Source of the DNA: Pleurocapsa sp. FMAR1
GTDB lineage: Bacteria > Cyanobacteriota > Cyanobacteriia > Cyanobacteriales > Xenococcaceae
Length of the DNA: 64,000 nucleotides
NCBI RefSeq assembly: GCF_963665995.1
Contig: NZ_OY762512.1
Span: 3,844,001 to 3,908,000, forward strand
Direction: 5' to 3'
The notes beneath the pieces are model-generated. The model had not been told where the DNA came from and searched no databases. It saw nothing but the letters and a program-made list of their open reading frames with translations. This document shows positions 29,560 to 46,297 of the stretch, piece by piece; positions within the stretch are counted from its first letter, which is position 1; every line of letters starts with the position of its first letter. The translations under genes were made by a program, and so were the position numbers.

Positions 29560-29610
29560 GCGGTGCGACCCCGCGTCGCCGTCAGGCGCAAGGGAACGCG
29601 CACCAAGACA
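29560..29610. repeat. 51-bp palindromic repeat, short form
   Basis: A GC-rich element starting GCGGTGCGACCCCGCGTCGC and ending GCGCACCAAGACA. The same start and end occur at 43164-43265 inside the chelatase gene, where a longer middle is present, and the same end occurs at 41769-41781 in the IS1-type element. It begins 8 bp after the exostosin-like stop codon. The remaining DNA up to 29960 holds no gene. Confidence 0.75.
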
Positions 29611-41401: not shown

Positions 41402-41752
41402 ATGTTAATATCCTGTCCTTCTTGTAAGTCCAAGCAAATTGTAAAAAATGGAAAAATTCACAATGGAAAACAAAATTATCGTTGTCGTGACTGCGGTAGA
41501 CAGTTCGTCGAAAATCGACAGCAAAAAATTATTAGTCAACCGACCAAAAATTTAATTGACAAGCTATTGTTAGAAAAGATTCCATTGGCGGGGGAACCCC
41601 GCTTAAAGGAACTGTCGAGGTTGGGTCAGAGTATTCTGTCCCAACAGGCGAGTGGAACAAGCCCCCTAAACGGGGGCGTTTCCTCGCCTCAAAAACTGCC
41701 GTCCGCAACGCAAGTGTCTCACCACCGCAACTGCTTCACCGCGTCTTTTTAA
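41402..41752 (+). pseudogene. InsA part of the IS1-type transposase, truncated
   Basis: The first 61 residues are a good InsA start: a zinc ribbon with 'CPSCKSKQIVKNGK' and 'YRCRDCGRQFVENRQQKII', then 'NLIDKLLLEKIPLAG'. From there to the stop the frame translates inserted repeat DNA and has no protein-family character. The helix-turn-helix end of InsA and the junction to InsB are lost, so the protein cannot be normal. Confidence 0.8.
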
Positions 41753-41784
41753 GACGAATCGCGAAGGCGCACCAAGACAGGAAA
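41588..41784. repeat. Composite palindromic repeats replacing the middle of the IS1-type element
   Basis: About 200 bp of GC-rich self-complementary DNA, including GCGGGGGAACCCCGC, CCCCCTAAACGGGGGCGTTT and the GCGCACCAAGACA end shared with 29560-29610 and 43164-43265. CCTAAACGGG(G/A)GCGTTTCC also recurs beside the IS4-type element near 52460. The transposase sequence resumes at '...GKLTIQCDEMW'. Confidence 0.7.
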
Positions 41785-41806
41785 ACTGACCATTCAGTGT
41801 GATGAG

Positions 41807-42250
41807 ATGTGGTCATTTGTTGGCAATAAAAGCAATAAACAGTGGATTTGGCTAGCTTTAGATGTTCAGACTAAAGAAGTGATTGGAGTTCATGTCGGCG
41901 ACCGCAGCAGAAAAGGAGCTAGAAAACTTGGGTCTTCTTTACCTCCAGTCTATCGACAGTGCGCCGTTTGTTATAGTGATTTCTGGGAAGCCTATGAACA
42001 AGTAATCCCTTCCCAACGCCATCAAGCCGTAGGAAAGGAGACAGGACAAACTAATTATATCGAGAGATTTAACTGTACATTGCGTCAAAGAGTTTCTCGT
42101 TTAGTCAGAAAAACACTCTTCTTCTCGAAGAAGATTGAAAATCAGGTTGGAGCAATTTGGGGCGAGTGGAATATGGCTCTGTTTAAGAGCCATATTCCAC
42201 TCGCCCGTTGGTATTTTGTCCATCACTACAACGCATCCTTACATCTTTAG
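41807..42250 (+). pseudogene. InsB part of the IS1-type transposase with an in-frame insert
   Basis: Encodes the catalytic end of an IS1 transposase: 'DEMWSFVGNKSNKQWIWLAL', 'CYSDFWEAYEQVIP', 'TNYIERFNCTLRQRVSRLVR' and 'KTLFFSKKIENQVGAIW', then 'WYFVHHYNASL'. Between GAIW and YF lie 17 extra residues (GEWNMALFKSHIPLARW) encoded by a 51-bp insertion that keeps the frame. With insA destroyed, no complete transposase can be made. Confidence 0.8.
42161..42207. repeat. 47-bp near-perfect palindrome inserted in insB
   Basis: Two perfect 20-bp complementary arms (42161-42180 and 42186-42205) around a 5-nt loop, plus 2 bp. TTGG precedes (42157-42160) and follows (42208-42211) the element, as a 4-bp target duplication would. 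The total addition is 51 bp, a multiple of three, so insB remains open. Confidence 0.8.
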
Positions 42251-42433: not shown

Positions 42434-45400
42434 ATGAAACGTATTGTCTTGATTGCGGGATTTGAATCTTTTAACGCTAACCTGTATCGCCAGGCTGGGT
42501 CGATGGCTACTGCACGTTGTGAGGCGTTAGAAGTAATTGTCTTTAGCGATCGCGATATCACGACATATCCTGCTAAGGTAGAAACTGCGCTACAGTCTGC
42601 CGATGTTTTCTTTGGTAGCTTGCTTTTTGATTACGACCAGGTAATGTGGTTAAGAGAAAGAGTTCAAAATATTCCCATCAGGCTTGTATTTGAGTCGGCT
42701 TTGGAGTTGATGAGTCTGACGCAGTTGGGTAAATTTGCCATTGGCGACAAGCCAAAGGGAATGCCCAAGCCAGTTAAATTTATTCTCAGTAAGTTTGGTA
42801 ATGGCAAGGAAGAAGATAAGCTAGCTGGCTATATTAGCTTTTTAAAAACAGGACCTAAATTACTAAAATACATTCCTGGGAAGAAAGTACAGGATTTGCG
42901 TAATTGGTTGATTATTTACGGTTACTGGAATGCAGGAGGCACAGAAAATGTTGCTTCGATGTGTTGGACATTAGCAGAGAAATATCTCGATTTAACCGTC
43001 GGTGATATTCCCCAACCAGTTGAAACCCCTAATATGGGTTTATTGCATCCCGAATATCAGGGTTATTTTACGTCGCCACAGGATTATCTGGAATGGTACA
43101 ACAAACACGTAGGGGCGAAAGACGATGTAAGGGAGATTCCCGATGTAGGGGCGTTTCGCGAAAGCGGTGCGACCCCGCGTCGCCGAAAGGCGCGTCTTGA
43201 AAAAGTTGCTCATGGGGGAAACCCCCAAGACCGCACTTTTCCGCAAGGGAAAGCGCACCAAGACACGCCCCTACCAGTCATCGGAATTTTGTTATATCGC
43301 AAACACGTGATTACCAAACAGCCTTATATACCCCAGTTAATCAAACATTTTGCATCCCAGGGATTAATCCCTTTACCTATATTCATCAACGGTGTAGAAG
43401 GTCATGTGGCGGTTAGAGACTGGATGACAACTACCTACGAACAAGAACAAAGACAGCAAGGTAATAAAGAAATACTTTCGCTAAAGGATGATGCAGTTAA
43501 GGTAGATGCAATTGTTTCAACTATTGGCTTTCCCTTGGTCGGCGGTCCCGCAGGATCGATGGAGGCTGGCAGACAGGTAGAAGTAGCTAAAAGAATACTC
43601 ACTGCTAAGAATGTTCCTTATATAGTTGCTGCACCTTTACTCATTCAAGATATCCATTCCTGGACTCGTCAGGGTATTGGTGGTTTACAGAGTGTAGTGT
43701 TGTATTCCCTGCCTGAATTAGATGGTGCGATCGATACTATCCCTTTAGGTGGTTTAGTAGGAGAAGATATCTATCTTGTACCCGAAAGACTTCATCGTTT
43801 AACTGGCAGAGTCAAAAACTGGATTGGTTTGCGTCATACTCCTACCCCAGCTAGAAAAATTGCGGTGATCTTATATGGCTTTCCCCCTGGTTATGGCGCG
43901 ACGGGTACAGCAGCACTATTAAACGTACCTAAGAGTTTATTAAATTTTCTCCAGGCACTTAAAGCTCAAGGTTATGACGTAGGCGAATTACCCGAAGATG
44001 GCGAAGAGATTATCAAGCAGGTAAAAGAAGCCGATGAATCAGCCCCTCTTAATAAAGAAGGACAGGGGGGATTTCAAGTAAACGTCCGCACTTTAGAAAA
44101 ATGGTTGGGCTATCTGCAAACTACCAGAGTTGAAAAGCAGTGGAAATCCTTAACAGGTACAGGACTTAAAACCTATGGCGATGAGTTTCAACTTGGAGGT
44201 ATCCAGTTAGGTAATGTCTGGATAGGAGTACAGCCACCGTTAGGCATAGCAGGAGATCCTATGCGGTTGATGTTTGAAAAAGATTTAACTCCCCATCCCC
44301 AGTACACGGCTTTTTATAAATGGTTGCAAAACGAATATCAGGCTGACGCGGTAGTCCACTTTGGAATGCACGGTACAGTAGAGTGGCTTCCTGGTTCACC
44401 TTTGGGCAATACGGGTTATTCGTGGTCAGATATTTTGTTAGGTGATATTCCCAACTTATATATCTATGCAGCCAATAATCCCTCAGAATCAATCTTGGCG
44501 AAACGTCGGGGTTATGGCGTTTTGGTTTCTCATAATGTTCCTCCTTACGGACGGGCGGGTTTATACAAAGAATTAATTGCCCTGCGGGAATTGATTGGAG
44601 AGTATCGAGAAGACACTAAAAAGAATTATGCCTTGAGAGATATTATCTGTCAGAAGATTGTTGATGCTGGCTTAGAAAAAGACTGTAAGTTTACAGAGGG
44701 TTTAAAACAAGGAATTAGTTTTACCGTCGAGAATGGGAAGTTATTTAGTAAAAATGTAATTAATCAATATTTTGTTCAGGTATATGAATACTTGCAGGTA
44801 TTAGAACAGCGTTTGTTTTCTTCTGGGCTGCACGTTTTGGGAGAAAAGCCTAGCAAAGAAGAGTTGAAGTCGTATTTGGAAGCGTATTTTGATGGAGGGT
44901 TGTCGGAAGGTGAGATTGATGGGATAGTTTCGCGCAAAGACGCAAAGACGCAAAGTAATGACGCAAAGTTAACTTCTAAGTTAGAAGAGGGAGAGAAGAT
45001 TAGGGACTTGTTGGTGCAGAATACTGATGAGATGACTAATTTGCTGCGAGGTTTAAACGGTGAATATATACCCCCCGCGCCTGGAGGGGATTTATTACGC
45101 GATGGTAGTGGTGTGTTACCCACTGGTAGAAATATCCATGCTTTAGATCCTTATCGGATGCCTTCTCCTGCTGCTTATGAAAGAGGAAAAGAGATTGCTA
45201 AAAAGATTATTCAGCAGAATTTAGAGGAAAAGGACGCTTATCCTGAAACGGTAGCAGTCATGTTATGGGGATTGGATTCAATTAAAACTAAAGGAGAATC
45301 TTTAGGTATTTTACTAGAGTTAGTCGGTGCTGAACCTGTCAAGGAAGGTACGGGAAGAATTGTCCGCTATGAATTGATCCCCTTAGAAATATTAGGACAT

Positions 45401-46297
45401 CCTCGCATTGATGTTTTAGCTAACCTGTCGGGGATCTTCCGCGATACTTTTGTCAATATTATTGAATTGCTAGATGATTTATTCCGACGGGCAGCAGAAG
45501 CGGAGGAATCGGCAGATAATAACTATATTCGCAAGCATTGTTTGGCATTAAAAGCCCAGGGTGTAGACAATGCCAGTGCCAGAATGTTTTCCAACCCTGC
45601 TGGTGATTTTGGTTCTTTAGTTAACGACCAAGTGGTAGATAGTAATTGGGAATCTAGTGATGAACTTGCGGACACCTGGAAAAACCGTAACGTGTTTAGT
45701 TATGGACGCAAGGATAAAGGACAGGCTAGACCAGAAGTATTATCGCAGTTATTAGAGACAAGCAGTCAAATTATCCAAGAAATTGACTCTGTTGAATACG
45801 GCTTAACCGACATCCAGGAGTACTATGGTAACACTGGCGGTTTAAAATTGGCAGCGGAAAAACAAAGTGGAAAGGAAGTAGAAACCTCGTTTGTCGAAAG
45901 CTTTTCTAAAGATACCACTCCCCGCAAGCTAAAAGATTTACTCCGCATGGAATACCGCACCAAATTACTTAATCCTAAATGGGCAGAAGCAATGGCTGAT
46001 CAAGGTTCTGGTGGTGCTTATGAAATCTCTCAGCGCATGACGGCTTTAATCGGTTGGGGTGGTACAGCCAATTTTAAAGATGACTGGGTATATGATCAAG
46101 CAGTTGATACCTATGCTTTAGATGCAGAGATGGCACAAAAGTTACGAGATGCCAATCCTGAAGCCTTTCGTAATATTGTCGCACGAGCGATTGAGGCTCA
46201 AGGAAGAGGCTTATGGAATGCCGATGAAGAAAAGTTAGATAAGTTGAGAGAGTTATACGAGTCTACAGAAGATGAATTAGAAGGAGTTACGGTTTAA
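42434..46297 (+). CDS. bchH: ChlH/BchH/CobN-family chelatase large subunit
   Basis: A 1287-residue metal-chelatase H subunit, the porphyrin-binding partner of the AAA+ I and D subunits that inserts Mg2+ into protoporphyrin IX (ChlH) or Co2+ into a corrinoid (CobN). Visible blocks are 'LRNWLIIYGYWNAGGTENVA', 'LLYRKHVITKQPYIPQLI', 'VVHFGMHGTVEWLPGSPLG', 'NLYIYAANNPSESILAKRRG', 'LNGEYIPPAPGGDLLRDGSG' and 'NIHALDPYRMPSPAAYERGK'. It starts 'MKRIVLIAGFESFNANLYRQ', unlike the main cyanobacterial ChlH, so it is probably the second H-type paralogue that some genomes label cobN. Three repeat-derived insertions appear to lie in frame (43108-43274, 44041-44075, 44933-44968). No cobalamin riboswitch is seen upstream. 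Ends 48 bp before a convergent gene. Confidence 0.85.
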   Translation: MKRIVLIAGFESFNANLYRQAGSMATARCEALEVIVFSDRDITTYPAKVETALQSADVFFGSLLFDYDQVMWLRERVQNIPIRLVFESALELMSLTQLGKFAIGDKPKGMPKPVKFILSKFGNGKEEDKLAGYISFLKTGPKLLKYIPGKKVQDLRNWLIIYGYWNAGGTENVASMCWTLAEKYLDLTVGDIPQPVETPNMGLLHPEYQGYFTSPQDYLEWYNKHVGAKDDVREIPDVGAFRESGATPRRRKARLEKVAHGGNPQDRTFPQGKAHQDTPLPVIGILLYRKHVITKQPYIPQLIKHFASQGLIPLPIFINGVEGHVAVRDWMTTTYEQEQRQQGNKEILSLKDDAVKVDAIVSTIGFPLVGGPAGSMEAGRQVEVAKRILTAKNVPYIVAAPLLIQDIHSWTRQGIGGLQSVVLYSLPELDGAIDTIPLGGLVGEDIYLVPERLHRLTGRVKNWIGLRHTPTPARKIAVILYGFPPGYGATGTAALLNVPKSLLNFLQALKAQGYDVGELPEDGEEIIKQVKEADESAPLNKEGQGGFQVNVRTLEKWLGYLQTTRVEKQWKSLTGTGLKTYGDEFQLGGIQLGNVWIGVQPPLGIAGDPMRLMFEKDLTPHPQYTAFYKWLQNEYQADAVVHFGMHGTVEWLPGSPLGNTGYSWSDILLGDIPNLYIYAANNPSESILAKRRGYGVLVSHNVPPYGRAGLYKELIALRELIGEYREDTKKNYALRDIICQKIVDAGLEKDCKFTEGLKQGISFTVENGKLFSKNVINQYFVQVYEYLQVLEQRLFSSGLHVLGEKPSKEELKSYLEAYFDGGLSEGEIDGIVSRKDAKTQSNDAKLTSKLEEGEKIRDLLVQNTDEMTNLLRGLNGEYIPPAPGGDLLRDGSGVLPTGRNIHALDPYRMPSPAAYERGKEIAKKIIQQNLEEKDAYPETVAVMLWGLDSIKTKGESLGILLELVGAEPVKEGTGRIVRYELIPLEILGHPRIDVLANLSGIFRDTFVNIIELLDDLFRRAAEAEESADNNYIRKHCLALKAQGVDNASARMFSNPAGDFGSLVNDQVVDSNWESSDELADTWKNRNVFSYGRKDKGQARPEVLSQLLETSSQIIQEIDSVEYGLTDIQEYYGNTGGLKLAAEKQSGKEVETSFVESFSKDTTPRKLKDLLRMEYRTKLLNPKWAEAMADQGSGGAYEISQRMTALIGWGGTANFKDDWVYDQAVDTYALDAEMAQKLRDANPEAFRNIVARAIEAQGRGLWNADEEKLDKLRELYESTEDELEGVTV
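43145..43274. repeat. Nested palindromic repeat inside the chelatase gene
   Basis: An outer perfect inverted pair GTAGGGGCGT (43145-43154) and ACGCCCCTAC (43265-43274) encloses a 102-bp long form of the element at 29560-29610 (43164-43265). Its middle is itself a palindrome around CATGGGGGAAACCCCCAAGA. Translated, it gives an Arg/Gly/Lys-rich stretch foreign to the protein family. The reading frame stays open across it. Confidence 0.8.
44041..44075. repeat. Second repeat insert in the chelatase gene
   Basis: The segment reads CCCCTCTTAATAAAG then AAGGACAGGGGGG, resembling a short dispersed cyanobacterial intergenic repeat. It is translated as 'SAPLNKEGQGGFQ' between 'VKEAD' and 'VNVRTLEKWLGYLQTTR'. 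No frame disruption. Confidence 0.55.
44933..44968. repeat. Tandem CGCAAAGA repeat inside the chelatase gene
   Basis: Three near-identical units of the 8-mer CGCAAAGA followed by a fourth after TAATGA spacing. Translated as 'SRKDAKTQSNDAKL'. It is a typical cyanobacterial tandem repeat unit lying in a variable linker, upstream of the conserved 'LRGLNGEYIPPAPGGD' block. Confidence 0.65.

Follow-up and report, generated by a model that had tools for sequence, protein, structure and literature searches.

How can the gene of a large enzyme carry 130 bp of nested palindromic DNA and still be open from end to end? The question is raised by a segment at 43145-43274 of the window, the 64,000-nucleotide stretch of Pleurocapsa sp. 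FMAR1 DNA analysed here, which an earlier note had described as a nested palindromic repeat lying within a chelatase gene without loss of frame. That description is accurate: the segment resolves into units of 28, 51 and 51 bp, and the 1287-codon open frame at 42434-46297 contains no stop, insert included. The reading that we favour, with a probability of roughly 0.8, is that the units are miniature repeats, translated in the manner of the Rickettsia RPEs and tolerated mostly in linkers, and that the nest consists of three non-autonomous palindromes that have spread as selfish DNA. The features on which the argument rests are listed here, with the evidence for each in brackets; O, M and I denote the outer, middle and inner units.

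42434..46297, plus strand: BchH/ChlH-type chelatase H-subunit paralogue, 1287 aa, carrying the insert (profile matches; dN/dS against 11 orthologues)
43109..43144, plus strand: repeat-like linker material (VGAKDDVREIPD) that starts with another GTAGGGGCG half (sequence)
43145..43163, plus strand: O, left part, 19 bp (copy comparison)
43164..43193, plus strand: M, left part, 30 bp, GCGGTGC plus nt 1-23 of the conserved 33-nt core (copy comparison)
43194..43244, plus strand: I, the whole 51-bp repeat around GGGGGAAACCCCC, lying within the M core (copy comparison; parts also on cyanobacterial plasmids)
43245..43265, plus strand: M, right part, 21 bp (copy comparison)
43266..43274, plus strand: O, right part, 9 bp, CGCCCCTAC (copy comparison)
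29560..29610, plus strand: intergenic M without I, the short form of the earlier note (copy comparison)
44042..44071, plus strand: second variable linker, APLNKEGQGG, residues 537-546 (inverted repeats here in orthologues)
44930..44953, plus strand: third variable linker, SRKDAKTQ, residues 833-840 (inverted repeats here in orthologues)

The Gene That Carries the Insert

Against the BchH profile TIGR02025 the window gene scores 1566.8 bits, above the cutoff of 829, and against NF009140 it scores 974, below the cutoff of 1300, whereas a separate 1330-aa gene of the same genome (L066) is recognized by NF009140 as Mg-chelatase subunit H with 2242 bits. The profile scores thus point to the window gene being a paralogue that stands beside ChlH, and because the separate gene scores as Mg-chelatase subunit H, essentiality does not follow: the window gene need not be essential. 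The "essential-looking enzyme" of the earlier note is weakened to that extent. The gene itself is conserved, with a dN/dS of 0.050-0.071 against 11 orthologues (1232-1281 codons), at dS values of about 0.96 to 1.9, which are near saturation. The frame is intact and conserved. Just upstream of the gene, at 41402-42250, lies an IS1-family transposase that is split into pieces matching model positions 1-68 and 103-199, and the DNA between these pieces resembles other nested palindromes of the genome (L002, L003, L007 and L024).

Structure of the Nest

With unit boundaries set by comparison with other copies, the 130 bp divide exactly into 28 + 51 + 51, with O outermost, M within O and I within M. 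O, which reads GTAGGGGCGTTTCGCGAAACGCCCCTAC once the inner parts are removed from 43145-43274, is a perfect 28-bp palindrome of the form GTAG...CTAC that is palindromic to its very ends, its GTAG tag having no unpaired position outside the stem. M (51 bp) sits after base 19 of O, and the intergenic copy at 29560-29610 departs from it at 3 positions; I (51 bp) sits after base 30 of M. A rule by which insertion always occurs at the hairpin tip was considered and dropped, as M enters O 19 bp in, off-centre, and I follows base 30 of M. The inner 102 bp had been taken for a long form of the 51-bp repeat; the intergenic recurrence of M bears out the short form, whereas the supposed long form combines M with I, which is a 51-bp family of its own.

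Folded as RNA, the segment reaches -63.1 kcal/mol (z -5.57, with none of 200 shuffles as good), and the intergenic M alone reaches -23.9 (z -1.98, with 6 of 200 shuffles as good). A search of Rfam with the segment gave two chance-level matches, both under their gathering scores. Stop-free frames number six out of six for the window M, five for the intergenic M and four for I; a stop-free design produced by selection was rejected as the explanation, since dinucleotide shuffles equal it (shares of 0.57, 0.91 and 0.91, respectively).

Copies of O, M and I

With the segment as the query, the organism's own genome returned at least 51 matches at E ≤ 0.001 with the best 40 of 209 candidates scored, a copy number far beyond chance. 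Exact O-type palindromes occur at 10 places and exact M cores at 45, the reversed-pattern control giving 0 in both cases; a solo O identical to that of the window stands at G000:C1:242336-242363, and O with M and without I is found at three other places (L004, L005 and L006). Among 40 relatives, M cores are present in 17 and O-type palindromes in 29, again with a control of 0 throughout.

What is conserved in M is a core of 33 nt, the flanking bases being variable and often complementary. Stems of at least 4 bp enclose the core in 32 of 42 distinct copies of the own genome and in 20 of 28 from relatives (10 and 8 lack them), against means of 7.0 and 3.3 and maxima of 15 and 10 in 1000 re-pairings of the flanks. 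Because these flanks vary and yet often pair, M appears to behave as a hairpin whose core is fixed and whose stems vary, and the variation may reflect either covarying stems or insertion at palindrome centres.

DNA resembling I is carried by six cyanobacterial plasmids, whose matches cover the I part only, while a search of phages with the segment gave no match. On a Stanieria plasmid (L278), I-type DNA lies close to where an annotated OrfB ends. At L008:1501-1606 and L009:1501-1604 the position of I in M is taken by inserts of similar size, about 51-52 bp, and different sequence, and from these copies the insertion point inside M would itself seem to be a recurrent site.

The Chelatase Linker in Other Genomes

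Two overlapping sets of orthologues were compared. The first comprises 28 linkers from related genomes besides that of the window (L067 repeats L059, and seven loci, the genome's own ChlH among them, yielded no linker by pattern); the second comprises 80 named orthologues, 74 of them with a readable linker, and L117, L118, L119, L120, L123, L125 and L154 are contigs that also occur in the first. The whole nest is absent from 28 of 28 and 74 of 74 readable linkers, which is what the earlier note had expected of an insertion, and among these linkers there was no distant orthologue with the same segment at the same place. The 102 bp, or 34 codons, were met in the window gene only, among the linkers read. 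The proposal that the segment lies between otherwise conserved blocks did not survive the comparison: its surroundings are a hypervariable linker that differs widely among orthologues in both length and sequence, and none of the 28 linkers from related genomes holds a stretch equal to 43109-43144.

In the orthologue of Pleurocapsa sp. CCALA 161 (L061, the same as L117), the site reads GGGCGTTTCGCGAAACGCCCCTAC, so that the O core of the window gene is present there and the inner 102 bp are missing. Eight orthologues (L033, L034, L036, L037, L041, L046, L047 and L064) have a 28-bp GTAG palindrome at the site that is perfect or nearly so, broken palindromes are seen in L039 and L035, L042 has a palindrome of another kind, and L032, from another genus, has a different long insertion with the M core in another register; no palindrome was recognized at the linker in the remaining orthologues of the first set. 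Because several genomes of the same genus carry an O-type or other palindrome at the same codons, palindromes at this linker are likely to predate the 102 bp, and M may have arrived together with I as one unit.

The linker is one of three in the gene that are rich in such structures. In an alignment of 81 orthologous genes, a census of inverted repeats with perfect arms of at least 9 bp (the window's nest is too wide and was uncounted) found 46, against 13 in one codon-shuffle control; 33 of the 46 lie in three linkers, of which residues 220-285 hold 18 (in 18 of 80 orthologues), residues 540-559 hold 8 and residues 820-859 hold 7. When the own genome was searched with the window gene's second linker, no repeat match was returned, although the peptide of this linker resembles the repeat-made peptides of relatives.

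The palindromes that occupy the linker belong to several unrelated sequences. Eleven distinct 28-bp linker palindromes, picked by hand from both sets and so not an unbiased sample, and taken without a shuffle control, stay paired even where both partners have changed, a single position showing as many as four types of pair. Placed on a tree of 28 rows that was built without the linker, four hand-assigned linker classes take 7 changes, whereas shuffling gives 11.1 on average, so that by this measure the classes appear clustered, yet with turnover. The close genomes L046 and L047 are an example, carrying palindromes of the GAGAC and GGGGC types, respectively, at the same codons, which looks like a palindrome swap. 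A broader generalization, which we regard as possible rather than probable, is that linkers of cyanobacterial coding genes act as "landing pads", where palindromes throughout the phylum would insert, nest and be swapped for one another, so that a given set of codons is occupied by unrelated palindromes in turn and the enzyme on either side does not change. If this is true, repeat turnover would be a standing source of linker variation, and a DNA-level process would prefer palindromes as targets or templates.

The Same Repeats in Unrelated Genes

The repeats are not peculiar to the chelatase gene. Exact M cores lie in long open frames in 8 of 45 cases. Under a stricter test, in which each flank must have an ORF of at least 90 codons, 7 of the 45 have the same frame on either side, 1 has different frames (L220), 6 have a frame on one side only, the copy in an ISL3 transposase among them, and 31 have none. 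Since coding copies were sought via open frames, frame-breaking copies are partly hidden from the count of 8; the stricter test gave L220 as the one candidate. The frames that take up M belong to CobN, a PabB/TrpE-like synthase, Ddl, SufD, a PKS, a P450 (twice), TnpB and the ISL3 transposase. The CobN and PabB/TrpE-like copies are O with M, O alone is found in the AlaRS and IleRS genes, and a long form stands at the end of a GH15 glucosidase gene (the GH15 copy and the second P450 copy are outside the 45 exact cores). The same repeats are thus in frame in several unrelated genes of the genome, and the comparison with RPEs drawn in the earlier note, as to the mode of insertion with kept frame and putative translation, holds well.

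Some of these copies, and not all, sit between domains. In the PabB-like, TnpB and PKS proteins the M copy separates one Pfam match from the next, and in Ddl it sits where the two domains meet, whereas the P450, CobN, AlaRS and IleRS copies lie inside a family or domain match and not in an interdomain linker. In Ddl the net insertion is 45 bp; it is missing in 18 of 19 orthologues, the remaining one being a partial orthologue, and the displayed alignment is otherwise gapless (two of the orthologues, L250 and L254, have one stop each in the match). A clean empty site is thus seen in 18 Ddl orthologues, and no target duplication was recognized there by eye. The PabB-like gene was tried as another clean empty site and set aside, as the linker of its orthologues is too variable.

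The copies of M are read as sense f0 (three times), sense f1, antisense f1 and antisense f2 (three times), and the window copy as sense f2. Given that five registers are used in all, the encoded peptide is probably irrelevant and not what is kept.

Several further loci deserve mention in their own right. Both M copies of the P450 frame at L215:905-2398 (minus strand) fall within the P450 domain match and share one antisense register. A Y1 transposase match lies close to the TnpB gene at L110:1885-3246 (plus strand), in which M is in frame and has a Pfam match on either side. In CobN (L004/L277), a second gene of the chelatase family, O with M is in frame in the opposite orientation, by eye at about the third variable linker region. 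A longer composite, GFTDISKLRKDPASP...FPMSNPKG, is shared in one and the same register by L032, in its chelatase linker, and by the window genome's SufD (L211:683-2125). A 418-aa frame with the long form (L230) was dropped as a gene, as neither Pfam nor NCBIfam gave a match to it, and it may be no gene at all.

A Proposed Course from Insertion to Tolerance, and the Alternatives

In an AlphaFold model of residues 1-433, built with 49 other sequences, residues 236-276 have pLDDT below 50 and lie between a confidently modelled helix at 215-225 and a likewise confident strand at 282-288; the model is modest (mean 64, pTM 0.57), residues 98-162 are low too, and a shallow alignment and the truncation could explain the low values. 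Such a disposition would suit the sequence of events that we infer, in which mobility of the repeats, purging of harmful copies and translation of the remainder all play a part. Copies would land widely in the genome, and most of those hitting genes would be purged; the survivors would be those in frame, mostly in flexible linkers or loops, where some 34 extra residues would do little harm. Because the inner units are 51 bp long, or 17 codons, and are mostly stop-free as their composition predicts, nearly any register would be readable. Nesting could arise because existing palindromes mark places that are already tolerated, and they may even be preferred as targets.

The strength of the predicted RNA structure, unmatched by any of the 200 shuffles, and the position of the insert within an otherwise conserved gene could instead be taken as signs of ribosome bypassing, as known from mitochondrial byp elements and phage T4 gene 60, in which case the insert would be an mRNA hairpin that ribosomes hop and the protein would lack the extra residues. 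We consider this highly improbable: the frame is kept and the insert is free of stops, the net additions here (102 bp) and in Ddl (45 bp) are both multiples of three, which bypassing would not need, and eight copies within genes keep the frame, whereas only one candidate for a broken frame was seen. Still less credible is a decaying paralogue that gathers repeats as ordinary junk. It would account for a gene with repeat-prone linkers in a genome with a separate Mg-chelatase H gene, but it is at odds with the absence of stops, with the low dN/dS over the 11 orthologues (dS being near saturation) and with the occurrence of the same repeats in Ddl, SufD and tRNA-ligase genes.

The units might also be REP or REPIN elements mobilized by a RAYT-type tyrosine transposase, and the genome does contain seven Y1_Tnp matches. 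The GTAG tag, however, is reportedly an unpaired motif at one end of the REP (abstract of PMC3733652), whereas in O the palindrome takes in both ends. Neither of the exact O ends GTAGGGGC and GCCCCTAC occurs in the sequence examined at the seven Y1 loci, the sole M core there lies inside the tnpB beside L110, and no mobilizing enzyme for O, M or I was found. Even with O beginning in GTAG and ending in CTAC, and with GTAG-tagged REPs reported in cyanobacteria in PMC3733652, this origin seems to us unlikely, and the reading of O, M and I as non-autonomous, RPE-like repeats that are tolerated where they do little harm is the one that we retain. One of the Y1 transposase genes, L113, with a YVENQ motif, is flanked by two repeated kinds of palindrome (around ATGAAATTAATTTCAT and GTTTAAAC), which have no relation to O and M and may form a REP-like pair.

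The orthologues, whose sites range from empty through singly filled to nested, offer a natural series for the study of how enzymes tolerate an inserted peptide and how very small repeats spread, and annotators and protein modellers should expect linkers of this sort to be repeat-derived.

Comparison with Known Repeat Systems

Several systems of small repeats share features with those described here. The small dispersed repeats (SDRs) of Nostoc described by Elhai et al. in 2008 are reportedly small structured repeats of 21-27 nt with compensatory stems and nested insertions in cyanobacteria, features that are close to M with its conserved 33-nt core and variable complementary stems; we know of no protein-coding use of SDRs. 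MITEs, like O, M and I, are non-autonomous inverted-repeat DNA, and they are longer than the units here. Cyanobacterial examples include MITEs with ORFs listed for Anabaena PCC 7120 in PMC10969869, REPINs in Nostoc are mentioned in PMC3116915, and the HuH classes of cyanobacteria are treated in PMC6006769. A search of main texts for O, the M core, the GAGAC palindrome or VGANGRSP as exact strings gave no paper, which shows only that they are not printed in the texts searched.

As a kind, the phenomenon is established, with in-frame palindromes known in Rickettsia (PMC10969869) and intragenic GTAG REPs elsewhere (PMC3733652). The latter paper reports GTAG/CGTC REPs inside genes of several bacteria, counting RPE-4 and RPE-6 among these REPs, and the cyanobacterial families GTAG-12, -15 and -16, one species pair having intragenic copies at about the same recB site. 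O resembles these in its GTAG end, palindromic form, multiple copies and intragenic occurrence; it differs, in a comparison made without the GTAG-15 and GTAG-16 consensus sequences, in being a perfect palindrome with a variable core for which no RAYT association was found. Nesting within coding sequence, the use of many registers and the recurrent occupation of one linker across many cyanobacteria were not met in the literature searched, which does not imply that they are absent from print.

The nearest parallel is that of the RPEs, which PMC10969869 describes as dispersed palindromic repeats of about 150 bp, in frame in unrelated genes and apparently translated, each with a conserved peptide. 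The likeness, as drawn from descriptions, lies in dispersed palindromic repeats that are in frame in several unrelated genes; the difference is that the units here measure 28, 51 and 51 bp, are nested, encode no conserved peptide and belong to another phylum. Translated palindromic repeats have been discussed chiefly for Rickettsia, and here putatively translated ones are cyanobacterial, nested, spread over five registers and found in genes as different as those for Ddl, SufD and tRNA ligases.
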